DNA from: Flavobacterium sp. CECT 9288
Lineage (GTDB): Bacteria > Bacteroidota > Bacteroidia > Flavobacteriales > Flavobacteriaceae
Assembly (NCBI RefSeq): GCF_918731615.1
Contig: NZ_OU957226.1
Span: forward strand, 62,001 to 126,000
Direction: 5' to 3'
Length of the DNA stretch: 64,000 nucleotides
This document shows positions 51,277 to 64,000 of this stretch, piece after piece. A program made the position numbers and the translations under genes. Below the pieces are notes generated by a model that saw only the letters and a list, made by a program, of their open reading frames with translations, made no database searches and was not told where the DNA came from. Every line of letters starts with the position of its first letter. Positions within the stretch are counted from its first letter, which is position 1.

Positions 51277-51395
51277 CGACCACTTATCGACACTAAATGG
51301 GTTTTGGTCTATATCAAATTCAGTATTACCGATTGAGCCCAATTGCTAGGTATAACTTTAGTACTTTTAGTTTTTTAAAATAACAACTAAATACC

Positions 51396-51809
51396 ATGAC
51401 AAAGGCACTAAATATTTTGCTAATAGAAGACGATGAAATTGAAGTAATGAAGTTCAATAGAGTTTTGAGCAATTTAAAAACAACCCATAAAATTGTTGAA
51501 GCAAATAATGGTGAAGAAGCTATTACAATTTTAAAAGAAAAAGAAATGATTCCTGATATCATTGTTTTAGATCTAAATATGCCTAAGATTAATGGAATAG
51601 AGTTTTTAGGAATATTAAAGTCAGATGAATATTTAAAATACATTCCAGCCATTATATTGACCACATCAAGTAATAGGTCTGATTTGTTTGAGTGTTATAA
51701 AATAGGTATCGCAGGATATTTACTAAAACCCTTAAAATACGATGAGTATGTGGATAGGGTTACTAAGCTTGTTGAATATTGGAGTGCAAATGAGTTAATC
51801 ACAAATTAG
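51396..51809 (+). CDS. Single-domain response regulator (receiver only)
   Basis: This 137-residue CheY-like receiver has the acidic pocket EDD at 11-13, phosphoacceptor Asp59 (VLDLNMP), and the conserved Lys in LLKPLKY. There is no output domain. It is the type often paired with PAS-rich or phytochrome-like kinases (Rcp1-like). It lies 131 bp upstream of the HNOBA kinase gene, so it is a natural phosphate carrier between the kinases and the HPt protein at 57082. Confidence 0.92.
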   Translation: MTKALNILLIEDDEIEVMKFNRVLSNLKTTHKIVEANNGEEAITILKEKEMIPDIIVLDLNMPKINGIEFLGILKSDEYLKYIPAIILTTSSNRSDLFECYKIGIAGYLLKPLKYDEYVDRVTKLVEYWSANELITN

Positions 51810-51940
51810 GGATTATGTACGGTATCTTTAATAAACTCTCAGTGATTATGTGTTGTTTAAAAACATAAGTATTCATATCTTAACTTTAATCAATAAAAGA
51901 AAATAAATCTTATTAAAAATTCAAATTAATTGGTAGTTGC

Positions 51941-54925
51941 ATGAAGAATCTAGCACTTTGTTTTAATGAAAAAAGTTTGAATAGATTGTTTCCATTTTAC
52001 ATATTGGTTTCACCAAATTTTGAAATTATAAATTTTGGTTCTAGCTTAGGTAAAGTGTGCCATGATTTAAGTAACACTAAATTATTTTCGGATTTATTTA
52101 AAATTACTAGACCATATTTAGAAACTTTTTCGTTCCAGGAAATAGTATCACATTGTAATAATCATCTTGTTTTACAGCATAGTTCATCTGGTCTAAATTT
52201 AAGAGGACAGTTTGAATTAATGGGAGATAATGTTTTATTTGTAGGTTCCCCTTGGTTTACATCAATGGTTGAATTGATGAATAAAGGCTTGACTTTTGAA
52301 GATTTTGCTCCTAATGATCCTTCTATTGATTTACTTCATGTGCTTAATAATGCCGATAACACTTCTAAGGAATTAAAGGAATTATTGGCAACCATTAACG
52401 AACAAAAAAACAAGTTAAAACAAGCCAATAAAGAAATTCAAGATATTGCACTTTTTCCTACTCAAAATCCAGATCCTTTAATCCGAATTGACACGCAGGG
52501 AAATCTTTTGAAACGTAATCCAGCAGGAGAAAAATTAACAATATTTGTTCATGACGAAATAGAATATTCAACCGAGGCATTTTTTAAACACATTGCTTCT
52601 AAAATTGATTTTGATACAGATCGATGGATTTTTGAAGCGCAAACTAATAATAGAGATTATTCCTTTGTATGCAAGACACTCAAGGATTTGGGTTATGTAA
52701 ACATTTACGGCCGTGATGTAACTGAACAGAAAAAAAGTCAGGAAGAGATAAATAGATTGTCTCTTGTAGCTAGTACTAATGTTAATGCAGTAATTTTTAC
52801 AGCCCTAGATGGAACTATCAATTGGGCCAATGAAGGATTTGTGAAACTTACAGGTTTCTCCTTGAAGGAAGCAATAGGTCGTACCACTGAGGATTTGTTT
52901 CAAGGAGCACTAGTGGATCAATCCACCTTTGAGGCTATAAAAATCGCTAAAGCAAAAGGGGAGCATTTTAGTCAGGAATTAATACATTATAAAAAAGATA
53001 GTACGTGGTTTTGGGCAAAAGCTGAAGGGCAACCTTTATTTGACAGTGAGGGAAATGTAAAGGAATATTTTGCGTTAATAGAGGATATTACAGCAAAAAA
53101 GGAAGATGAAGAAGAGCTAAAAAGATTGTCACTCGTGGCAAGTTTAAATAATAATGGTATTGTGTTTACCAAGCCTAATGGTAAAATATTTTGGTGTAAT
53201 GATGCTTATACCACCTATACGGGTTATTCTAAAGATGAAATTATAGGGAAAACTCCAGTACAAATAGGTCGAACCTCGGATATTGATGATGAGCAGTTGG
53301 ATATTATGGTTAGTTCTTTTTATAATGGATTTCCATTTGATGTTGAACTGAAGCACGGAAGAAAAGATGGTAGTTCTTTTTGGGTCAAGGCCAAAGGGCA
53401 GCCCATACTTGATGCAAATGGTGAGGTTACCCAATTTTTTGCCATGATTGAGGATATTTCTCTTAAAAAAAGGTACGATGAAAGTTTACAAATAGAAAAA
53501 GAAAAGTACAGAGGAATAATTGCAAATATGAATCTAGGATTGCTTGAAGTTGATCTAGATAATAACATTACCATGGCCAATCACGGTTTTACAACTATGA
53601 GTGGCTATACACAGCAAGAGCTCATAGGGAATAATGCTATAGAAATCTTTGTTAATGAAAGTGGTAAGAATGTATTGAAGACAAAAGATAAATTAAGATC
53701 TGATGGATTAACAGATTCCTATGAGTTGCAAGTCTATGATAAAAATAAAAAAGAAAGAATATGGCTTATTAGTGGTGCTCCAAATTATGATTTACAAGGT
53801 AATTTAATAGGATCCATAGGCATTCATCTTGATATTACTGATCAAAAAAATCAAGAGCAGCAATTGTATTTGTTATCGTTGATTGCTGAGAAAAATTTAA
53901 ATTCGGTTATAATTGCAGATCGAATGGGTCGAATTGAATGGGCCAATGCTAGTTTTTTAAGAATGTCAGGGTATTCTAAGGACGAAATTATAGGTCAAAG
54001 GCCAGGAGCTTTGTTACAAGGTCCAGAATCCAATCCTGAAGTGATTCTTTATTTGAGAAATCAAATTAAAAAGGGTCTCCCTTTTAATTGTGAGATTATT
54101 AATTATTCAAAAAACAAAGAGAAATATTGGGTACGTATTCAAGGACAGGCACTTTATGATAAAGCCGGGAAATTAATAAAATATTTTGCCATTGAGGAAG
54201 ATGTTACCGCTCAAAAAGAGCTGGAATCCCAAAAAGAGAATTTATTATCAGATTTAGCAAAAACCAATAAAGAGCTTGAGGATTATGCGCAAATAGTATC
54301 ACATGATTTAAAATCTCCTTTACGCAGTATTAATTCATTGATTACCTGGATTAAAGAGGAGAATGTAGATAGCTTTGACGCACCAACTCAAAAATATTTT
54401 TCATTAATTGAGCATAAAGTCGAAAAAATGGATCATCTTATTGAAGGAATTTTGACGTATTCTAAAATTGATAAAGAAGCTGTAAAACCAGAGATTATTG
54501 ATACGCATGAAATTGTTCAAGGTATTATAGATATTATTCATTTGCCAGATCACATTAGCGTATCTATTTTAGGTACATTGCCTAGCATTAATGCAGATAA
54601 ATTTAGGATACAGCAATTGTTTCAAAACCTTATTGGTAATGCTGTAAATTATATTGATAAAAGTCAAGGATTAGTTGAAATTAGCGCTGTTGAAGATGGT
54701 GATAATTATATTTTTTCTATAAAAGATAATGGTGTAGGGATGCCAAAAGCAATCCATTCAAAAATATTTGAAACCTTTAAATCTTTTACAACTAGTAAAC
54801 ATTCAACAGGTTTAGGTCTATCAATAGTTAAAAAAATTATTACTTTTTATCAAGGAGAAATTTGGTTAGAAAGTGAAGAGGGGGTCGGAACCACTTTTTT
54901 TGTGAAATTAAAAAAAGAATCATGA
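51941..54925 (+). CDS. HNOBA-PAS(5) sensor histidine kinase
   Basis: The soluble 994-residue kinase begins with an HNOBA domain (about 10-145) recognisable by FPFYILVSPNFEIINFGSSL, LSDLF-like FSDLFKITRP, and LRGQFEL...VLFVGSPWF...DFAPNDPSIDLL. A coiled linker (145-172) leads to about five PAS domains: one degenerate at 175-265, and PAS/PAC units at about 275-395, 400-515, 520-640 and 645-765. The HisKA domain carries His788 (QIVSHDLKSPL), followed by HATPase (NAVNYI, DNGVGMP, GLGLSIV). HNOBA normally couples to H-NOX nitric oxide sensors, but no H-NOX gene is in the window. It overlaps the FIST gene by ATGA. Confidence 0.88.
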   Translation: MKNLALCFNEKSLNRLFPFYILVSPNFEIINFGSSLGKVCHDLSNTKLFSDLFKITRPYLETFSFQEIVSHCNNHLVLQHSSSGLNLRGQFELMGDNVLFVGSPWFTSMVELMNKGLTFEDFAPNDPSIDLLHVLNNADNTSKELKELLATINEQKNKLKQANKEIQDIALFPTQNPDPLIRIDTQGNLLKRNPAGEKLTIFVHDEIEYSTEAFFKHIASKIDFDTDRWIFEAQTNNRDYSFVCKTLKDLGYVNIYGRDVTEQKKSQEEINRLSLVASTNVNAVIFTALDGTINWANEGFVKLTGFSLKEAIGRTTEDLFQGALVDQSTFEAIKIAKAKGEHFSQELIHYKKDSTWFWAKAEGQPLFDSEGNVKEYFALIEDITAKKEDEEELKRLSLVASLNNNGIVFTKPNGKIFWCNDAYTTYTGYSKDEIIGKTPVQIGRTSDIDDEQLDIMVSSFYNGFPFDVELKHGRKDGSSFWVKAKGQPILDANGEVTQFFAMIEDISLKKRYDESLQIEKEKYRGIIANMNLGLLEVDLDNNITMANHGFTTMSGYTQQELIGNNAIEIFVNESGKNVLKTKDKLRSDGLTDSYELQVYDKNKKERIWLISGAPNYDLQGNLIGSIGIHLDITDQKNQEQQLYLLSLIAEKNLNSVIIADRMGRIEWANASFLRMSGYSKDEIIGQRPGALLQGPESNPEVILYLRNQIKKGLPFNCEIINYSKNKEKYWVRIQGQALYDKAGKLIKYFAIEEDVTAQKELESQKENLLSDLAKTNKELEDYAQIVSHDLKSPLRSINSLITWIKEENVDSFDAPTQKYFSLIEHKVEKMDHLIEGILTYSKIDKEAVKPEIIDTHEIVQGIIDIIHLPDHISVSILGTLPSINADKFRIQQLFQNLIGNAVNYIDKSQGLVEISAVEDGDNYIFSIKDNGVGMPKAIHSKIFETFKSFTTSKHSTGLGLSIVKKIITFYQGEIWLESEEGVGTTFFVKLKKES

Positions 54926-56058
54926 AAATTATTCAAGCAAGTAAATTAGCCCGAGGTGGCTGGAGCTATATACAAGAAAAATCAAAATTACTAAACCCAC
55001 TTGTACTGGTTTTTGGGAATCGTCTATTATTAGCAAATAGTGAGGTTTTACAAGATATTCGTAATGAGTTTCCGTATGAGGATCTAGTTTTTGGATCTAC
55101 TTCAGGTGAAATTTCAGGCTCTAGTGTAAATGACGATTCCATTTCGGTGGTAGCGATCGAGTTTGAAAAATCAAGTTTTATAGTTAAAAGAGATAATATT
55201 TTAGACCATAATAAAGATGCTAAACTTCTTGGTGAGCACTTGTATGAGCAAATGCCGAAGGAAAATCTTAAACATTTATTTGTACTTTCAGAGGGGAGTT
55301 TTGTAAACGGAAGTTCCTTGATTTCTGGCCTTGAGACTAATATGGAGGACTCTGGATTATCTATTACAGGCGGTATGTGTGGTGATGATGCACGTTTTGA
55401 AAAAACACTTGCCTCATACAAGGAAGATCCAAAAGAAGGAGAAGTGGTTCTTATTGGTTTTTATGGATCAACATTCGAGGTTTCGTATGCTAGTTTTGGT
55501 GGTTGGATTCCCTTTGGCCCAGAGCGCGTTATCACAAAGTCAGTAGCAAATGTATTGTATGAAATTGATGGTCAACCAGCTTTAGACTTATATAAAAAAT
55601 ATCTAGGAGATAAATCCAGTGAACTTCCACAAGCCTCTTTATTATATCCTTTAAATGTAACACCAGATGGTAAGAAAGAACCAGTTGTACGTACTATTTT
55701 AAATATTGATAATGATACACAGTCTATGATCCTTGCAGGTGATGTACCTGTAAATTCAAGAGTTCAACTCATGATGGCATCAGTTGATGGGATTGCACAA
55801 GGAGCCAATACTGCTGCAAATTACGGTATGAAAAATAGAACTAAAGCCCCTGAATTAGCTCTTTTGGTAAGCTGTATTGGGAGGAAATTGGTAATGAGTC
55901 AGCGTGTTGAAGAAGAAATAGAGCATGTAAGAGAGGTTATTGGTCAACAAGTTCCTATTGCAGGATTTTATTCTTATGGTGAAATGGCTCCTTTTAATGG
56001 GGAGACTGCTTGTGAATTACACAATCAAACGATGACATTAACCTTAATAAGCGAATAA
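54922..56058 (+). CDS. FIST-domain sensory protein (NosP-type candidate)
   Basis: This 378-residue soluble protein contains FIST_N (about 20-215; DLVFGSTSGEISG) and FIST_C (about 220-360; GQPALDLYKKYLG, CELHNQTM). FIST proteins are ligand sensors, and the NosP subgroup binds heme and nitric oxide and regulates kinases encoded beside it. Overlaps of 4 nt with the HNOBA kinase gene and 1 nt with the second kinase gene show tight coupling. Whether it binds heme is not decided by the sequence alone, as I cannot assign the heme histidine with certainty. Confidence 0.88.
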   Translation: MKIIQASKLARGGWSYIQEKSKLLNPLVLVFGNRLLLANSEVLQDIRNEFPYEDLVFGSTSGEISGSSVNDDSISVVAIEFEKSSFIVKRDNILDHNKDAKLLGEHLYEQMPKENLKHLFVLSEGSFVNGSSLISGLETNMEDSGLSITGGMCGDDARFEKTLASYKEDPKEGEVVLIGFYGSTFEVSYASFGGWIPFGPERVITKSVANVLYEIDGQPALDLYKKYLGDKSSELPQASLLYPLNVTPDGKKEPVVRTILNIDNDTQSMILAGDVPVNSRVQLMMASVDGIAQGANTAANYGMKNRTKAPELALLVSCIGRKLVMSQRVEEEIEHVREVIGQQVPIAGFYSYGEMAPFNGETACELHNQTMTLTLISE

Positions 56059-57095
56059 TGCATTCATTACTAAAACGTCAGATAGATAAAAAACTTGCGG
56101 GAGGTCTTAATGACTTGGATATTTTTTTGGATGCAGTTAATGAATCGTACCAAAATTATGAAAGCCAAATAGAGATGCTGCAAAGGGCTATGAAAATTAG
56201 CTCCGATGAATTATTTGAGGCGAATCAAAAATTGCGGGATGAAGCTAAAAGCCTAAAAGAATTAAATAAAAACTTACAGTCTATTCTTGATTCTATGAGT
56301 GTTGGGCAAGATTTTATGACAAATACAGAGGTTTTTGATTCTTCGGAATATATTAAACAACAATCTATTGAAATTGTAAAAATTAATAAACAAAGAGAAG
56401 AATTGTTGTTTAATCTTGAAAAACAAAATAAAGCATTGAATGAATATGCTCACATGGTTTCACATGATTTAAAGGCACCTTTGCGTAGTATTGATACTTT
56501 GATCAACTGGTTTATTCAGGATAATGAGTCTCTATTGAATGAAGCCAATCTAAAATCTTTGAATAGGATTTTGTTAAATGTAGAGAAAATGGACTCTCTT
56601 ATTAAGGGGATTTTAAACTATTCCTCTATTGAAAATCATACGCATGAAGAACGTATTATTGATGTTAATCATGTTGTGCAAGATTTTTTGAAAACTATTG
56701 AAATTCCAAATAATGCAGACATTAGCATAACTAATGATCTTCCTGTTTTAATGGGAAATGATTTTAGATTGAAACAACTCTTTCAAAATCTAATACAAAA
56801 TGCGCTTAAATACAATGATAAAGAACACATAGAAATTGAGATATCCAGTACCGAAAATGAGCAAGAATATTTATTTCAAATAAAAGACAATGGTATAGGT
56901 ATTCCTCATGCATACCAGCACAAAATATTTGATATTTTTTCTAAATTACAAAATGACGATAACTCCTCAGGCATAGGACTTTCTATCGTTAAAAGAATAA
57001 TAGAATTTTATAAAGGAAGAATTTGGCTTGAAAGCCAAGAAAAAGTAGGGACTACTTTTTTCTTCACAATACCAAAGGATCATGGAAACACCTAA
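56058..57095 (+). CDS. Soluble sensor histidine kinase downstream of FIST
   Basis: This 345-residue kinase has no membrane helix and no clear PAS domain. A coiled-coil N-terminus (about 30-130) leads to HisKA with His136 (HMVSHDLKAPLRSI) and an HATPase with NALKYN, DNGIGIP and GIGLSIV. The start overlaps the FIST stop (TAATG). Its lack of a sensory domain suggests that the FIST protein is its input. The H-box region is closely similar to that of the upstream HNOBA kinase, so the two kinases may share a receiver. Confidence 0.92.
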   Translation: MHSLLKRQIDKKLAGGLNDLDIFLDAVNESYQNYESQIEMLQRAMKISSDELFEANQKLRDEAKSLKELNKNLQSILDSMSVGQDFMTNTEVFDSSEYIKQQSIEIVKINKQREELLFNLEKQNKALNEYAHMVSHDLKAPLRSIDTLINWFIQDNESLLNEANLKSLNRILLNVEKMDSLIKGILNYSSIENHTHEERIIDVNHVVQDFLKTIEIPNNADISITNDLPVLMGNDFRLKQLFQNLIQNALKYNDKEHIEIEISSTENEQEYLFQIKDNGIGIPHAYQHKIFDIFSKLQNDDNSSGIGLSIVKRIIEFYKGRIWLESQEKVGTTFFFTIPKDHGNT

Positions 57096-57399
57096 TTTAA
57101 ACTATGTAAATGAATTGTCTGGTGACAATGAGCAATTTAAGGCAAAAATTTTATCCATCCTAAAAAAAGAGTTGCCAGTAGAGGTTGAAAATTATGAAAA
57201 ATACATGCAAGAATTAGATTTTTTTAATGCTGCACAATCTGTTCATAAACTGAAACATAAAATTTCTATACTAGGTCTCGAAAAAAGTTATTATATTGCT
57301 GTTGATTATGAGCATAATTTAAATAATGACTCCGTAGCCTTAAAAAATGATTTTGAAACAATTTTAAAAGCTATGCAGGAGTTTGTTATAAAACTCTAA
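57082..57399 (+). CDS. HPt phosphotransfer protein
   Basis: This 105-residue helical protein has the HPt motif AAQSVHKLKHKISILGLEKSY, with phosphoacceptor His55 and the following Lys58. The gene overlaps the kinase gene by 14 nt and ends 12 nt before the LytTR regulator gene. It would pass phosphate from the lone receiver (51396) to the LytTR regulator. Confidence 0.88.
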   Translation: METPNLNYVNELSGDNEQFKAKILSILKKELPVEVENYEKYMQELDFFNAAQSVHKLKHKISILGLEKSYYIAVDYEHNLNNDSVALKNDFETILKAMQEFVIKL

Positions 57400-57411
57400 A
57401 TAAATAGCTAT

Positions 57412-58119
57412 ATGAATTGCATTATTGTTGATGATGAAGAAATGGCAAGAGCCATAATAGCTCAATTTGTAACTAAATCAACAGATATTGAATGTATTGG
57501 AGAGTTTTGTAGCGCCATAGACGCAATAAAATTTTTGAATCAAAATCATGTTGATCTTATTTTCTTAGACATTCACATGCCAAATTTCACTGGTTTTGAT
57601 TTTATTCAAACCATAAAAAATCCTCCGCATATTATCTTAGTAACATCTGACAGAGATTTTGCTATTGAAGCCTTTGAATATGAATGTATTGTAGATTATC
57701 TTGTAAAACCTATTACCGAGTCACGTTTTTTAAAAGCCGTTCACAAAGTCTTAGCAATAAAAACTGACGAGCCACAAGTAAATACAACGATACAAGCTGA
57801 AGAAAAGCCTGATCATTTTTATGTAAACATAGATCGAAGATTGATTAAAATAGACAATAACTCAGTGAATGTTATTGAAGCAAAAGGAGATTATATTCAT
57901 ATAAAAACAGATAATAAAAATTACATTGTACACTCTGCAATGAAAAAAATAGAGGATATACTTCCAAAAGATATATTTTTAAAAATTCACCGTTCCTTTA
58001 TAATCAATGTTACAAAAATTATCGATATTGAGGATAATAGTGTTCTCATTGCAAAAGATGTTATCCCAATAAGTAGGTCAAACAAAACAGAACTTTTAAA
58101 ACGAATTAATGTTTTGTAA
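57412..58119 (+). CDS. LytTR-family response regulator
   Basis: This 235-residue protein has a receiver domain with acidic pocket DDEE (7-10), phosphoacceptor Asp53 (FLDIHMP) and KPI switch lysine, then a LytTR DNA-binding domain at about 135-235 (IKIDNNSVNVIEAKGDYIHIKT, KIHRSFIINVTKI). LytTR proteins bind pairs of direct repeats about 21 bp apart. It is the output of the phosphorelay. A matching repeat pair lies at 58630-58659, about 510 bp downstream. Confidence 0.94.
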   Translation: MNCIIVDDEEMARAIIAQFVTKSTDIECIGEFCSAIDAIKFLNQNHVDLIFLDIHMPNFTGFDFIQTIKNPPHIILVTSDRDFAIEAFEYECIVDYLVKPITESRFLKAVHKVLAIKTDEPQVNTTIQAEEKPDHFYVNIDRRLIKIDNNSVNVIEAKGDYIHIKTDNKNYIVHSAMKKIEDILPKDIFLKIHRSFIINVTKIIDIEDNSVLIAKDVIPISRSNKTELLKRINVL

Positions 58120-58215: not shown

Positions 58216-58572
58216 ATGACAATTATGAAAGTAAATCTACCCAATGCAGTAACTTTAGCTCTTGATTCTTCAAACAATGAGTTATCCGGTTATTTTTTAG
58301 TATCCACAAAATGGACTGTAATGAATGATGTTAATATTACTTTCGTAAGGAAAAATGCGTTAGGTTACTGTTACAATTTAGATTGGGCAGGTCCATTAAC
58401 TAAGCATGAAGTTATAAAGTTAAGTATTAACAACCCCTCTATTTCTATTGTAAGTATTGCCACAATACGACCTTTTTTACAAATACTGGATGATGTGGTA
58501 TACCTTCCTAACACTGCCGAAGCGCGCAAAGCAATTGGTATTGATAATGACGATTTACAATTAGCAAACTAA
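58216..58572 (+). CDS. Hypothetical protein
   Basis: This 118-residue protein has no signal peptide or membrane helix and no family that I recognise. The middle (WTVMNDVNITFVRKNALGYCYNLDWAG) looks like a mixed beta structure. An alternative start is the second Met at residue 4. It sits 96 bp after the LytTR regulator on the same strand with its own candidate -7 box, so it may be a target or accessory of that system. Confidence 0.6.
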   Translation: MTIMKVNLPNAVTLALDSSNNELSGYFLVSTKWTVMNDVNITFVRKNALGYCYNLDWAGPLTKHEVIKLSINNPSISIVSIATIRPFLQILDDVVYLPNTAEARKAIGIDNDDLQLAN

Positions 58573-59043: not shown

Positions 59044-61104
59044 TTACTTGAGGGTAAACAAAGGTTCACGGGTTAAATTCCATTTTACTCTTAAACCAAA
59101 TTCATTAAAAGTAAACCCTGAGGCCGTGGTAGAGGCAATATTACTTCGGGTTACATAAATATTACTCAACAGCCTATCCGAGAATTTGTAGCCTAGTTTT
59201 CCTTGAATACGATAGGTCCACTGTTTTGTATTGTCTTCAATAAACTGATAACCTGTTGCTAGGTTTGCGTTGTAAAACCAGGATTTAGACTCAATAATTT
59301 TTTCGTCTTTTAAAACTTCTAGAAATAATTCTACCGCATTAAACTTCTTTGGACTAAAATAATCAGTAGGAACACGATCTTTAAAAGCTATATATTGATA
59401 GTTTAATCCACCTTTTAGAACAGGTTTAGAGAGGAAGTTATAGTAAAAAGAGGTAAATAATAAATTACGATTGTTGTTATCTGTTTGCGAAGTGAAAAAA
59501 TATTGGGTAAACCAACCAAAATTAAAGTTGGTACTCAAATTATAATTTAAATAGTAATTGTTGGTTGCAATTTGCTTGATAATAAGATCAGTGTTAAAGT
59601 TTTGCATTTCACGTTTGTAACCCACTTCAAGATCCTGAAGTTTCATAGGCTTCATTTTGAAATATGTATGCAGCAATAGCTGGTTGTAACTAGTGTTTAT
59701 AGAGGTAGCACTGTTTACACCAGCTTCAAAACTATAACTAATTTTAGGGTGGAATTGATAACTTGCACCTAGAAGATAATCATGACTTATAGCATTTATT
59801 AACGTAACAGTATTGTCTGTTTTACGATATTGATAAGTTGCATTTACAGTCCATTTTGTTGATAAAGGTAATGTTATTGCAGTTCTTGACGCAAGCGCTG
59901 TGTTGTTTCCGTTATCAAATGAGTAGCTTAATTTTTCTTCGATAAAAGGAGTAAAATCCTCTTTCATTTTTTTTATAAATTGAAGTGCATCTCCTTGATT
60001 ATTAAAAATAGATAAGGTTGTTAAGGCTGCCTGATACGCCATACTAGTTTCGCCAGAAGCTTTGTAAGCATTGGCAATACCAAGATTTCCATCAAATGAC
60101 TTAGTGTCGTTTTCTAAAATATTTTTATAATAGGTGATGCTTTCTGGGAAATTACTTTTGTAAATATCTAGCGTAGCGGCAAGTGATAAAACCCAATTTT
60201 CATTGGGGTATTTTAGGAGTAACTCTTCAATATATATCTTAGCTTCTTTGTATTTTTTATTCCATATCAGGGCTTGTACATAGCGCTCTTGAGTTTGTTT
60301 TTTTAAATTTTCATCAGTAATACTTTGTGACAATGATAAGGATTCAGTAGCTAGTTTTAAGGCCTCTTTTTCTTTATTGTCAATATGTGTTAGAAGTGAA
60401 AGCCCATTTAATGCCAGTACGGGATAGTCTTTTGATAGTAATTGGTAAACCGCATTCCCTTTGTCAATATCTTTTGTGATGAGGTACATGTTTGCCTTAT
60501 TCATGAGAGTTTCTTTGTCTAATGGAAAATCAACTAATATTTCATCATAAAACGCCTCAGCTTCTGCGTATTTTTTTTCATTCACATATTGGTAACCATA
60601 CCCTAATTTAATATATTTTCTGGAAACCAAAGCTCCTGGATTTGCAGGTGACAACTCTAGGGCTTTGTTTACGTTTGCTAATGCAGTAGGATATTCTTTT
60701 AAGTTTGATAAAGTATTGGCAAAGCCAAGATGCGCTACAAAATTGGTTGGGTTTTTTTGAACAAGCTCGCTGTAGAACACTTTAGCTTCGTCAAATTTTT
60801 TGTTCCAAAGCAAAGATTCGGCATAATTTAATTCTATTTCTAAATCTCCAGGATATTCACTCTTTAATTGAATGAAATTTTCAAGTGCTGCTGGAGCTTG
60901 ATTGTTTAAACCAATTGCTCTTGCATAGCATAGTCGGGCTGTTTTATTTTTTGGATAAAATTTAAGGATATCTTTAAAAAAAAGTTCTGCTTTTGCAAAC
61001 TCTCCTTTTTCTAGATGGCTAAATCCCACATTCATGTCTTGTGCTTGTAGTGTAAAACTAAATATACTTATAAATACAAGCGCAATTTTTTGTAGTAAAT
61101 TCAT
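59044..61104 (-). CDS. TPR protein with C-terminal outer-membrane barrel, likely polysaccharide export
   Basis: The 686-residue protein has a signal peptide (MNLLQKIALVFISIFSFTLQAQ), about ten TPR-like repeats (25-395), and a C-terminal barrel (about 400-686) of amphipathic strands ending EPLFTLK. The layout matches exopolysaccharide export proteins such as PgaA, BcsC and PelB, which use periplasmic TPRs and a barrel. It also resembles YaiO. The divergent flippase and glycosyltransferase genes support a polysaccharide role. The short spacer to the STAS gene contains no marked operator. Confidence 0.8.
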   Translation of the reverse strand: MNLLQKIALVFISIFSFTLQAQDMNVGFSHLEKGEFAKAELFFKDILKFYPKNKTARLCYARAIGLNNQAPAALENFIQLKSEYPGDLEIELNYAESLLWNKKFDEAKVFYSELVQKNPTNFVAHLGFANTLSNLKEYPTALANVNKALELSPANPGALVSRKYIKLGYGYQYVNEKKYAEAEAFYDEILVDFPLDKETLMNKANMYLITKDIDKGNAVYQLLSKDYPVLALNGLSLLTHIDNKEKEALKLATESLSLSQSITDENLKKQTQERYVQALIWNKKYKEAKIYIEELLLKYPNENWVLSLAATLDIYKSNFPESITYYKNILENDTKSFDGNLGIANAYKASGETSMAYQAALTTLSIFNNQGDALQFIKKMKEDFTPFIEEKLSYSFDNGNNTALASRTAITLPLSTKWTVNATYQYRKTDNTVTLINAISHDYLLGASYQFHPKISYSFEAGVNSATSINTSYNQLLLHTYFKMKPMKLQDLEVGYKREMQNFNTDLIIKQIATNNYYLNYNLSTNFNFGWFTQYFFTSQTDNNNRNLLFTSFYYNFLSKPVLKGGLNYQYIAFKDRVPTDYFSPKKFNAVELFLEVLKDEKIIESKSWFYNANLATGYQFIEDNTKQWTYRIQGKLGYKFSDRLLSNIYVTRSNIASTTASGFTFNEFGLRVKWNLTREPLFTLK

Positions 61105-61257
61105 ATTGGTTAGGTGTAAGATTCGTTATTGCAAGTTAAGTATTAAATCGTAATATTTCGTCTACACTTTCAGGTTATTCATCTAAGTATTAATGCTTGT
61201 TTTTAATAATGTGCGATATTTGGTAACGAAACTAATTCCAACTTCAATATTAATAAG

Positions 61258-61548
61258 ATGGCAGTACACATTACATACAATTCTGGAGTTTATGAAATTA
61301 AAGGATTGTTGACTTCAGAAAACAGTGTATATTTAGAAAATCATTTAAACTGTTTATTGTCAAGGTTAAACGGACTAGTGGTTTCATTTGAAAAAGTAGA
61401 GGCAATGGATGCGTATACAACCAAAAATATTCTTGCCATATACGATAAAGCCCAAAAAGATGAAAAACCTTTTTTTATAATTGGTAGAAAAAATAAATGT
61501 ATTTCGGCCTGTTTTGATGCACTTGGCTCAACTGATGTGTTACTGTAA
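61258..61548 (+). CDS. STAS-like small protein without the usual phospho-serine motif
   Basis: This 96-residue protein has an STAS-type pattern of alternating strands and helices (GLLTSENSVYLENHLNCLL, GLVVSFEKVEAMDAYTTKNILAIYDKA). Anti-sigma-factor antagonists usually have Asp-Ser at the start of the third helix. Here the stretch reads MDAYTTKN, so any regulatory phosphorylation would have to be on threonine. It precedes the flippase gene by about 24 nt and may regulate polysaccharide secretion post-translationally. Confidence 0.75.
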   Translation: MAVHITYNSGVYEIKGLLTSENSVYLENHLNCLLSRLNGLVVSFEKVEAMDAYTTKNILAIYDKAQKDEKPFFIIGRKNKCISACFDALGSTDVLL

Positions 61549-61572
61549 TATTGAATTAATAATGTGTCTCAA

Positions 61573-62853
61573 ATGAAACTACTTGCAAGTATTACCTCAA
61601 AAATACCCAAAAAACTAGGTCCTGAGCAGCTTTTTATGTTGACCATATTATTGGTAAACGGAGGGAATTATTTGTACAATCTTATTTTGGGGAGGCTTTT
61701 AGGTCCCGAGGCATTTTCTGATGCGGCTATATTAATTACACTCTTACTGATACTTTCTTTTGTTGGGATGACTTTTCAAATAGTTGCTGCAAAATATGCT
61801 GTTCTTTTTCAAGAGAACAAGTTGTTATTGTTTCTTAAATTTATTTTGAAATATGCTGTTATACTTGGCATTATTCTAGGTTTTGGCATTGTGTTTTTTC
61901 ACAAGGAACTTCAAGCACTTTTTCATACTCAAACCGCCTCTATGTTTTATATTTTTGGTTTTGGTGTTCCCTTGTATTTTGTCATGAGTGTAAATAGGGG
62001 TTTGTATCAAGGTCAAAACAACCTTTCTCGATTAGCTACTACTTACCAAACCGAAATGGGGAGCAGGTTGCTATTTACAATTCCGTTCTTATTGATTTTG
62101 CCTTCAATTCCTAGTTCTGTTGTAGTTGCTATAGGTATTTTACTGTCTTTTGTAGCTGGATTACTTCCATTTCAAAAAACAATTTTTAGTAAAGTTGAGG
62201 CTAATAGCAATGCTAGTATCAATCACAAATCTATTGTGGTGTTTTTTGCGTTGACAGCGTTTTATGAGTGTACACAAATCATTATTAATAATAGTGATAT
62301 TATACTTGTCAAGCATTTTTTTAATAACAAAGATGCGGGTTTGTATGCATCACTTGCCTTAATAGGGCGCGTGGTGTATTTTGTGGCTTGGATGTTTGTA
62401 ATGCTTTTGTTACCTAAAGTGATTCAAATGAAAAAAGACAATCAGGATACGCTTCCTATTTTGCTTAAATATGTGAGTTATATTGTGGTTTTATCTTCCT
62501 TTATTGTTTTGTTTACCGCTATATTTCCAAATTTCGTAGTGCAAATCATGTTTGGTAAAGCTTATGTTTCTATCTCTTACTTACTTTGGAAGTATGCGCT
62601 TGCAACCTCACTTTTTGCAGTGGCTAATATTTTTGCCTACTACTATTTATCCTTGAATCAATATGTTCCTGTTGTTGTATCGGCAGTTTTGGGATGTACA
62701 CAAATTGTTTTAATTATTTTTTACCATAACTCTTTGGAGCAAGTGGTTCACATGCAAATTATTGCCATGGTAACTTTACTTTTTTTCCAGTTGCTTTACT
62801 TTATTTATAAAAACCGATTCGAACACAATAAAAAAACCAGCGCCTTAGTATAA
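61573..62853 (+). CDS. Polysaccharide flippase (Wzx/MOP superfamily)
   Basis: The protein has about twelve membrane helices and a start typical of oligosaccharide flippases (GPEQLFMLTILLVNGGNYLYNLILGRLLGPEAF). It would flip lipid-linked saccharide units across the inner membrane. The ATG at 61573 is preferred, but a GTG at 61564 in the same frame cannot be excluded. The glycosyltransferase gene follows 17 nt later, so both are probably co-transcribed with the STAS gene. Confidence 0.88.
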   Translation: MKLLASITSKIPKKLGPEQLFMLTILLVNGGNYLYNLILGRLLGPEAFSDAAILITLLLILSFVGMTFQIVAAKYAVLFQENKLLLFLKFILKYAVILGIILGFGIVFFHKELQALFHTQTASMFYIFGFGVPLYFVMSVNRGLYQGQNNLSRLATTYQTEMGSRLLFTIPFLLILPSIPSSVVVAIGILLSFVAGLLPFQKTIFSKVEANSNASINHKSIVVFFALTAFYECTQIIINNSDIILVKHFFNNKDAGLYASLALIGRVVYFVAWMFVMLLLPKVIQMKKDNQDTLPILLKYVSYIVVLSSFIVLFTAIFPNFVVQIMFGKAYVSISYLLWKYALATSLFAVANIFAYYYLSLNQYVPVVVSAVLGCTQIVLIIFYHNSLEQVVHMQIIAMVTLLFFQLLYFIYKNRFEHNKKTSALV

Positions 62854-62870
62854 AACCAAATTTAAGACAC

Positions 62871-64000
62871 ATGAAACTAGCCGTAATTACAGCTTTCCCA
62901 CCCAGCAAAGTAACCTTGAATGAATATGGATATCACTTAGTTAAAAATTTTGCACAAAAAAATGAAATTTCAGAAGTGATTTTGCTGTGTGATAAAACTC
63001 AAGATGCCAAGCAACTGGACTTTAAAAACAGTGATAAAGTGAAGGTGAGGGAATGCTGGTCATTTAATAGTTACACCAACATTATTTCTATCATGGATGC
63101 CATACGTGCTGAAAAACCTGATGCTGTTTTAATTAATTTACAGTTCATGAAATTTGGCGATAAAAAGGTTCCAGCGGCTTTAGGACTCTTAATTCCATGG
63201 ATTTTAAGAATGAATTCTATCCCAACAGTTTCTCTATTGCACAATATTCTTGAGCAAGTAGATCTAGAAAGTGCCGGATTTACAGATAATAAATTAGCGC
63301 AGCGATTTTATAATTTCGTAGGGACTTCATTAACTAAATTTATACTAAAATCGGATGTTGTGGCCGTTACTATCAATAAATATGTAGATGTATTGGTAAA
63401 GAAATACAATGTAAATAATGTTATAGTAATTCCACACGGAACTTTTGATACCATTGACGAACCTTCGTTTGATTTGGTTCCAGGACCCAAACAAATTATG
63501 GCTTTTGGAAAGTTTGGAACTTACAAAAAAGTTGAAATATTAATTGAGGCAGCAATTCTTATAAGACAACACAATTCAGAACCGATAGAAGTAGTTATTG
63601 CAGGAACTGATAGTCCTAATACTCCTGGTTACTTAAAAGGAGTTCAAGAAAAATACAAAGACACGCCAGGGATTAGATTTACTGGATATGTTGAAGAAAA
63701 AGATGTACCAGTTATTTTTGGTGACAGTACTGTTGTTGCTTTTCCATATACATCTACCACGGGAAGTTCAGGAGTGTTGCATCAAGCAGGAAGTTATGGT
63801 AAGGCTGTGGTAATGCCAGACTTGGGCGATCTTGCTTTATTAGTTGAAGAAGAAGGGTACAAAGGCGAGTTTTTTAATCCAGAAAGTGCCGCTTCACTGG
63901 CCGCCGCTCTTGAAAAAATAATCAATAACGATGAAAACCGTAAGGCTATTGCCATGCAAAATTTTATAGCTGCTAGCGCCTTATCTATGGGAACTATTAC
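62871..64000 (+). CDS. Family 4 (GT-B) glycosyltransferase, 3' end outside the window
   Basis: The frame begins MKLAVITAFPPSKVTLNEYG at 62871 and is open to the right edge, giving at least 376 residues. The N-terminal half has LLHNILEQVD. The C-terminal half has GYVEEKDVPVIFGDSTVVAFPYTSTTGSSGVLHQAGSYGKAVV, a group 1 glycosyltransferase donor-site pattern. It follows a flippase gene by 17 nt. The sugar donor and acceptor are unknown. Confidence 0.88.
   Translation, partial: MKLAVITAFPPSKVTLNEYGYHLVKNFAQKNEISEVILLCDKTQDAKQLDFKNSDKVKVRECWSFNSYTNIISIMDAIRAEKPDAVLINLQFMKFGDKKVPAALGLLIPWILRMNSIPTVSLLHNILEQVDLESAGFTDNKLAQRFYNFVGTSLTKFILKSDVVAVTINKYVDVLVKKYNVNNVIVIPHGTFDTIDEPSFDLVPGPKQIMAFGKFGTYKKVEILIEAAILIRQHNSEPIEVVIAGTDSPNTPGYLKGVQEKYKDTPGIRFTGYVEEKDVPVIFGDSTVVAFPYTSTTGSSGVLHQAGSYGKAVVMPDLGDLALLVEEEGYKGEFFNPESAASLAAALEKIINNDENRKAIAMQNFIAASALSMGTI

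Follow-up and report, generated by a model that had tools for sequence, protein, structure and literature searches.

A probable two-input phosphorelay operon of the Flavobacteriaceae, with a fossil in place of its H-NOX gene in Flavobacterium sp. CECT 9288

In the Spo0F–Spo0B–Spo0A relay of Bacillus, several kinases act through one stand-alone receiver, one phosphotransfer protein and one DNA-binding regulator. HNOBA is the domain that adjoins H-NOX in soluble guanylyl cyclase (sGC). Here we analyse an operon of Flavobacterium sp. CECT 9288 that combines these elements, located in a 64,000-nucleotide stretch of its genome (the window; positions 62,001 to 126,000 of contig NZ_OU957226.1, assembly GCF_918731615.1). 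It is probably a two-input phosphorelay operon of the Flavobacteriaceae, one input of which, H-NOX, has been lost in the window. We observe a gene content, order and homology shared with relatives, a fossil of the H-NOX gene, repeated absence of H-NOX with remnants left behind, and conservation of the operator pattern upstream. H-NOX/HqsK and NosP/VpsS of Vibrio feed the histidine phosphotransfer (HPt) protein LuxU (PMC6769237), FIST occurs near hnox as a Pfam co-occurrence in group 1 of an H-NOX neighbourhood network (PMC8738867), and the H-NOX and FIST domains have been reviewed together (PMC8846402). Systems of nitric oxide (NO) sensors and kinases are known; new here is the repeated loss of one sensor, with remnants in four lineages. 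We found no description of this operon in the literature on H-NOX, HNOBA and FIST/NosP, as far as that search, which covered few subscription journals, extends.

The operon comprises the following features, in which REC denotes a receiver and HK a histidine kinase.

51396-51809, + strand: REC, stand-alone receiver, probable first phosphoacceptor (Pfam Response_reg 79.1 bits)
51810-51940, + strand: H-NOX gene fossil (DNA alignment to F. tiangeerense H-NOX)
51941-54925, + strand: HK1, with HNOBA (H-NOXA-type), PAS, HisKA and HATPase_c; cognate H-NOX lost (Pfam, PDB 2p04 match)
54922-56058, + strand: FIST-FIST_C protein, candidate ligand sensor for HK2 (Pfam, structure model)
56058-57095, + strand: HK2, histidine kinase (Pfam HisKA and HATPase_c)
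57082-57399, + strand: HPt phosphotransfer protein (conserved histidine; Pfam matches of orthologues)
57412-58119, + strand: REC-LytTR response regulator, terminal step (Pfam; LytTR 60.4 bits)

All six reading frames are present at these positions and organised as one operon, the successive frames of HK1 through HPt overlapping by 4, 1 and 14 bp. A first-pass annotation of this DNA had named the six genes and their overlapping frames, and at the level of genes it was correct. HNOBA is matched in HK1 (74.7 bits, Pfam cut-off 23.4), FIST and FIST_C in the FIST protein (143.8 and 124.7 bits), HisKA and HATPase_c alone in the second kinase, which it had described as lacking a sensory domain, and REC and LytTR in the regulator; the five PAS domains that it gave to HK1 become four stretches with the Pfam PAS models. 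The HNOBA stretch of HK1 also matches PDB 2p04 (E 4.7e-9), titled as a signal transduction histidine kinase, and sGC chains. The structure model of the FIST protein has a predicted local distance difference test (pLDDT) score of 89.5 and finds its best match among solved structures in FBXO22, indicating that its fold is FIST. HK2 has about 125 residues ahead of its dimerization and histidine phosphotransfer (DHp) domain and no recognised sensory domain.

The locus resembles each of the described systems in part. A Spo0-like set is present, with a separate receiver, an HPt protein, a DNA-binding terminal regulator and two kinases without receivers of their own; unlike the Bacillus relay, the transfer protein is of HPt type instead of Spo0B type and the output is LytTR. 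As in sGC and the cyanobacterial systems of H-NOX and H-NOXA kinases, H-NOX of the nearest relative resembles Alr2278 and sGC beta-1 (F. tiangeerense H-NOX is closest to Alr2278, E 5.8e-44, then sGC beta-1) and HNOBA resembles 2p04 and sGC, whereas the window retains H-NOXA without H-NOX and, unlike sGC, has a kinase instead of a cyclase as output. The Vibrio inputs to LuxU, as described in the accessible part of PMC6769237, also place NO-sensor proteins on sensorless cytosolic kinases, one HPt and one regulator of biofilm genes; they are reported from different species and with hybrid kinases, whereas in relatives of the window one operon holds both sensor types, a separate receiver and a LytTR output. 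In the NosP–NosK–NosR system (PMC12570481), a FIST gene likewise adjoins a kinase without sensory domain, with about 130 residues ahead of DHp, but the regulator there is an HD-GYP protein, whereas the window output is a relay to LytTR and its FIST misses the NosP cut-off (below). Of the features used to recognise NosP, the FIST plus FIST_C architecture is present in the window, and an output through an enzyme of cyclic diguanosine monophosphate (c-di-GMP) is absent, the operon output being REC-LytTR. The accessible text of PMC8738867, unlike the present analysis, describes neither the gene order of the operon nor a pairing with HK2, a relay, an operator or a loss of H-NOX.

A search of the genome for H-NOX elsewhere, which had been suggested as a check, returned none (PF07700; 3.7 Mb, listed as 100% complete). 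In the nearest relative, F. tiangeerense, which has the same flanking genes and a FIST protein 96% identical to that of the window, an H-NOX gene sits between REC and HK1, exactly at the window's 131-bp gap. Both ends of this gene are recognisable in the gap. At the 5′ end 23 of 26 bases equal those of F. tiangeerense H-NOX, with the start codon and the next six codons at 51815-51835; the 3′ part spans about 90 bp (51846-51935) with 61 of 92 columns identical, and its alignment score of 26 compares with a shuffle maximum of 19 (0 of 2,000 shuffles as good). About 430 bp of gene body are absent between the two. When the gap is compared with 52 H-NOX genes, none of 60 shuffles scores as well. 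By these alignments, the H-NOX gene of the window was deleted and its fossil left in place; the two kinases and the relay that they share are intact. The gap is known from the assembly alone, which would leave room for an assembly or strain artefact; however, it carries diverged remnants of both H-NOX ends and not a clean cut, and H-NOX is likewise missing from the operon in five further lineages, three of which have their own remnants. We therefore regard an artefact as extremely unlikely.

Among 398 Flavobacterium genomes, 84 have an HNOBA match at E 0.001, 81 of them above the cut-off; H-NOX is found in 68 and FIST in 115. The window and 85 stretches, each centred on an HNOBA kinase or, in one genome, on FIST, gave 86 loci. 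Of these, 65 are comparable in that they contain an HNOBA kinase and, downstream, the LytTR gene; the remaining 21 are cut off by a contig end, belong to separate HNOBA systems, have broken genes or lack that LytTR gene. Receiver and HPt are present in all 65 and H-NOX lies inside the operon in 56. The order REC, H-NOX, HK1, FIST, HK2, HPt, LytTR occurs in 36 of the 65. H-NOX is present with FIST and HK2 absent in 18; all three are absent, with HNOBA kept, in 5; and 4 have FIST and HK2 without H-NOX (the window, G003, G420 and G161; G and L numbers denote genomes and loci of our set). In 63 of the 65 loci FIST and HK2 are present together or absent together (both in 40, neither in 23), the two discordant loci being G394, with a decaying FIST and no HK2, and G092, which has HK2 but lacks an operon FIST. 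Five further H-NOX-less loci with FIST and HK2 (G075, G126, G224, G236 and G409) lie outside the 65, their LytTR gene being missing or turned round: it is absent behind HPt in the G075 clade (L053-L057) and turned round in G236. FIST genes in 20 stretches from genomes without an HNOBA match have a different adjoining kinase, of about 500-1290 residues, and no such HPt or LytTR gene.

The absence of H-NOX has arisen repeatedly. In a quick tree, supported by the SH-like approximate likelihood ratio test (SH-aLRT) only, of the 68 loci, out of 86, in which REC is labelled and the HNOBA kinase exceeds 500 residues, the 13 H-NOX-less rows require six changes, all forced by well-supported branches; the H-NOX-less loci of G417 and the second copies of G105 and G158 are outside the tree. 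Remnants were sought in the window and in nine further H-NOX-less gaps, those of G224, G409, G088 and G417 not being aligned. Scores exceed the shuffle maxima in G003 (52 vs 23), G420 (230 vs 24), and G075 and G126 (39 vs 22 each), and the G236 gap is homologous to that of G075 (82 vs at most 21 in 200 shuffles). Four of the six H-NOX-less lineages thus hold remnants, and for this reason we read the six changes as losses of H-NOX. Where H-NOX is present, 66 of 70 Flavobacterium rows and 58 of 58 rows of other genera have its heme histidine, and most rows have the YxSxR motif. In the remaining four Flavobacterium rows, the operon H-NOX proteins of G345, G199, G221 and G120 (L114-L117), isoleucine stands at the heme histidine position. 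Some loci (L113, L135, L137, L139 and L145) contain a separate short system of H-NOX, an HNOBA kinase of ~372-375 residues and a receiver-like gene, without LytTR.

Outside the genus the two halves of the operon have different company. Named genomes were scanned with a FIST alignment and the best 80 of 191 relatives kept, 69 of them outside Flavobacterium. FIST, HK2, HPt and LytTR occur together at 57 of these 69 loci, with H-NOX upstream in 54 of the 57 and a first kinase upstream in 56 (one merely an 83-residue fragment). The HNOBA profile built in this analysis detects HNOBA in none of the 57 loci with these 56 first kinases, and in five first kinases of other genera Pfam finds PAS and not HNOBA. 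The H-NOX proteins differ as well: those upstream in other genera score 37-58 bits on a Flavobacterium H-NOX profile, against 231-317 in Flavobacterium, and the operon H-NOX of Kordia algicida, the sole other-genus H-NOX compared with the PDB, matches the structures 6bdd and 6bde (E 6e-114, listed under an aldolase name) and is of a type other than the Alr2278/sGC type of Flavobacterium. Across these loci H-NOX type and HNOBA go together, as do FIST and HK2, in a contrast that is confounded with phylogeny. These pairings suggest that both kinases probably feed one relay. Operons without H-NOX were also seen outside Flavobacterium, in Lutibacter oricola (L161) and in Polaribacter (L218), the latter also without a first kinase.

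HNOBA is still constrained after H-NOX loss. The ratio of nonsynonymous to synonymous substitution rates (dN/dS) of HNOBA is 0.186-0.193 when G236 is compared in turn with four sisters that also lack H-NOX (dS about 0.7), pairs that share one branch and are not independent, and 0.064-0.235 in nine H-NOX-bearing pairs. We cite dN/dS only for pairs with both dS values below 1, all-pair medians including saturated pairs. G105, G156 and G212 keep HNOBA without either H-NOX or FIST, and the two pairs computed among them give HNOBA dN of 0.114 and 0.170, with dS saturated or near 3.

In the first-pass annotation FIST was proposed to have succeeded H-NOX in sensing a ligand for the HNOBA kinase, in which case HNOBA would now dock FIST. 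Purifying selection on HNOBA after H-NOX loss would fit this, as would the presence of FIST in five of the six H-NOX-less lineages. However, FIST is found in 41 of the 65 loci regardless of H-NOX loss, so that its presence in those lineages is unremarkable; the five loci without both H-NOX and FIST keep HNOBA; and other genera pair FIST with first kinases in which HNOBA is not detected. A cognate H-NOX in relatives, which the annotation itself had named as speaking against its proposal, is present in 56 of the 65 loci, inside the same operon. FIST and HK2 coexist with H-NOX in the 36 loci of full order, and FIST tracks HK2. We rejected this takeover as the main account and hold it to be quite improbable; the annotation's assignment of sensor to kinase is not supported, and the annotation as a whole is partly supported.

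A different alternative makes HK1 a relic, constitutive or decaying, with only FIST and HK2 of consequence. Consistent with this, H-NOX is a fossil, and the ratio of HNOBA dN to kinase dN is 2.5-2.9 in the H-NOX-less clade, in the upper part of the 0.54-5.04 spanned by the nine H-NOX-bearing pairs. Yet the HK1 frame is open, its HNOBA, PAS, HisKA and HATPase_c domains are all above the Pfam cut-offs, as are the same domains in four other H-NOX-less HK1s scanned, and HNOBA dN/dS lies well under 1; we consider a relic improbable. A function of HNOBA independent of H-NOX, through a ligand of its own or through re-coupling to FIST-HK2 by mixed signalling at the shared receiver, is possible, if on the unlikely side; it would explain why the domain is conserved although its NO sensor was lost several times. 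If it were true, the H-NOX losses of Flavobacterium would be natural experiments on HNOBA.

Returning to the two-input relay, the best match of HK2 among 28 others in its own genome is HK1 (48% identity), which fits a shared receiver. The second match is C1:1067286-1067957 (41% identity, 170.7 bits), a candidate for a further input to the same relay. Some Flavobacterium loci (L036, L131, L133 and L141) have an extra HK2-like kinase between HK2 and HPt. The HPt protein of the window scores 14.8 bits against a Pfam cut-off of 24.6; among seven orthologues two exceed the cut-off (Kordia 30.7, Lutibacter 29.7), four fall under it and one is unmatched, and all 10 aligned rows share the HPt histidine. 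The order kinase to receiver to HPt to LytTR, already given by the first-pass annotation, is borne out as likely on the sequence evidence.

In the mechanism that we propose, H-NOX of the sGC/cyanobacterial type would signal to HK1 through the HNOBA domain in Flavobacterium, and the FIST protein would signal to the sensorless HK2 through a presumed contact. Both kinases, having no receivers of their own, would phosphorylate the stand-alone REC, from which phosphate would pass to HPt and then to REC-LytTR in the manner of Spo0F–Spo0B–Spo0A. The LytTR regulator would bind repeats of 21-bp spacing ahead of its own operon and of a set of STAS, flippase and glycosyltransferase genes. In the window, HK1 would be driven by its PAS/HNOBA region or be constitutive, and since H-NOX is a fossil, we expect the external signal that is left to pass from FIST to HK2.

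Direct repeats of 21-bp spacing are of the kind bound by LytTR proteins. The predicted operators and the genes beside the second of them are as follows.

51281-51313, + strand: predicted LytTR operator ahead of the receiver gene, a pair of degenerate half-sites at 21-bp spacing (score 18/24)
61155-61187, + strand: second predicted operator for LytTR (score 18), within the divergent promoter region that separates 61104 from 61258
59044-61104, - strand: TPR protein and possible target, with a probable barrel at its C-terminus, transcribed divergently from the STAS gene (Pfam TPR; barrel and target role are suggested readings)
61258-61548, + strand: STAS-like protein (Pfam STAS 18.6 bits, under the cut-off of 22.6), whose gene opens the possible target set
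61564-62853, + strand: membrane protein, probable polysaccharide flippase (no Pfam match; named from sequence appearance only)
62871-64000, + strand: glycosyltransferase group 1, extending beyond the window end (Pfam match of the complete gene)

In Flavobacterium, 55 of 74 regions upstream of the operon reach 18/24, against 0.1% of shuffles, and all 55 are best at 21-bp spacing (20-22 tried). The half-site was derived from these same Flavobacterium regions; independent support comes from the STAS promoters and from other genera, where 48 of 61 upstream regions score at least 18, compared with 0.5% of shuffles, and 44 of these 48 have the 21-bp spacing. Upstream of the STAS gene in relatives, 8 of 11 Flavobacterium loci score at least 17, mostly near -100, compared with 1.1% of 262 control open reading frames (ORFs). 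The window itself has two sites scoring at least 18 (0.2 expected) and three scoring at least 17 (1.8 expected). The second repeat lies ahead of the STAS, flippase and glycosyltransferase genes, so the output would include surface polysaccharide.

Between the operon and these genes, ORF 58216-58572 encodes a 118-residue protein, unmatched in the Pfam scan, with relatives behind the LytTR gene in several Flavobacterium loci. Defence-system profiles gave no matches to three scanned proteins. Outside the window, near polysaccharide genes (genome C1 132049-133221), a receiver domain is fused to a family 2 glycosyltransferase.

Several results weigh against the two-input reading or parts of it. The fossil differs from F. 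tiangeerense H-NOX by 29 mismatches in 90 aligned bases (51846-51935), whereas synonymous sites of the operon have a dS of 0.03-0.18 between the two genomes; as the fossil is the more diverged, either the loss predates the divergence of the flanks or the flanks have recombined. The spread of dS along the operon hints at recombination. In two of the six H-NOX-less lineages (G161; G105/G156/G212/G088, with G088 not aligned) no remnant was found, and direct detection also failed in the gap of G236. Being constrained without H-NOX, HNOBA may have another partner or ligand. As for the output, the region ahead of the STAS gene scores below 17 in 3 of 11 Flavobacterium loci and in 10 of 11 loci of other genera. 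The operator pattern is not enriched across the genome (17 matches vs 20 for a reversed control), a stricter pattern has 0 matches genome-wide, and the degenerate site upstream of the window's operon is not among the 17. On these counts we rejected a genome-wide regulon defined by the pattern, and the predicted regulon is limited to the two sites in the window.

On the NCBIfam NosP equivalog model, whose cut-off is 450 bits, the window FIST scores 55.6, against 499.9 for a control protein named NosP by the Prokaryotic Genome Annotation Pipeline (PGAP), and it is merely 21% identical to a PGAP-named NosP. A check against NosP-type FIST proteins had been suggested at the outset; membership by sequence is rejected on this score, and because the cut-off is missed by so far, we only infer that the window FIST binds heme and NO. 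H118 is conserved in 47 of 48 operon FIST rows and 0 of 23 other FIST rows, and H367 in 47 of 48 and 22 of 23, where the FIST of G169, 43% identical to the window's, is counted in both sets. Both were considered as heme ligands, and the conservation counts name no ligand. FIST could instead sense a signal other than NO, such as an amino acid or heme itself, the operon then integrating NO, through H-NOX, with a second signal. The FIST domain was first described as a small-ligand domain, and two inputs in one operon are more sensible if they differ; the distance from the NosP cut-off points the same way. Conversely, a sensorless kinase adjoining FIST is the NosP–NosK layout (PMC12570481), and a histidine in the C-terminal region lies within one or two positions of one in the named NosP. 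We see a signal other than NO as a serious possibility, which we nevertheless do not favour.

An operon with two separate candidate sensors of gas and two kinases on a single relay, present in many genera of one family, offers an evolutionary test case: Flavobacterium has repeatedly lost one of the sensors and kept the kinase domain that goes with it. Two questions become testable, namely the role of H-NOXA/HNOBA when H-NOX is missing and the sensing of NO by FIST proteins that are not NosP. The operon, which has no c-di-GMP enzyme, further provides a predicted polysaccharide target for NO signalling in the Bacteroidota.

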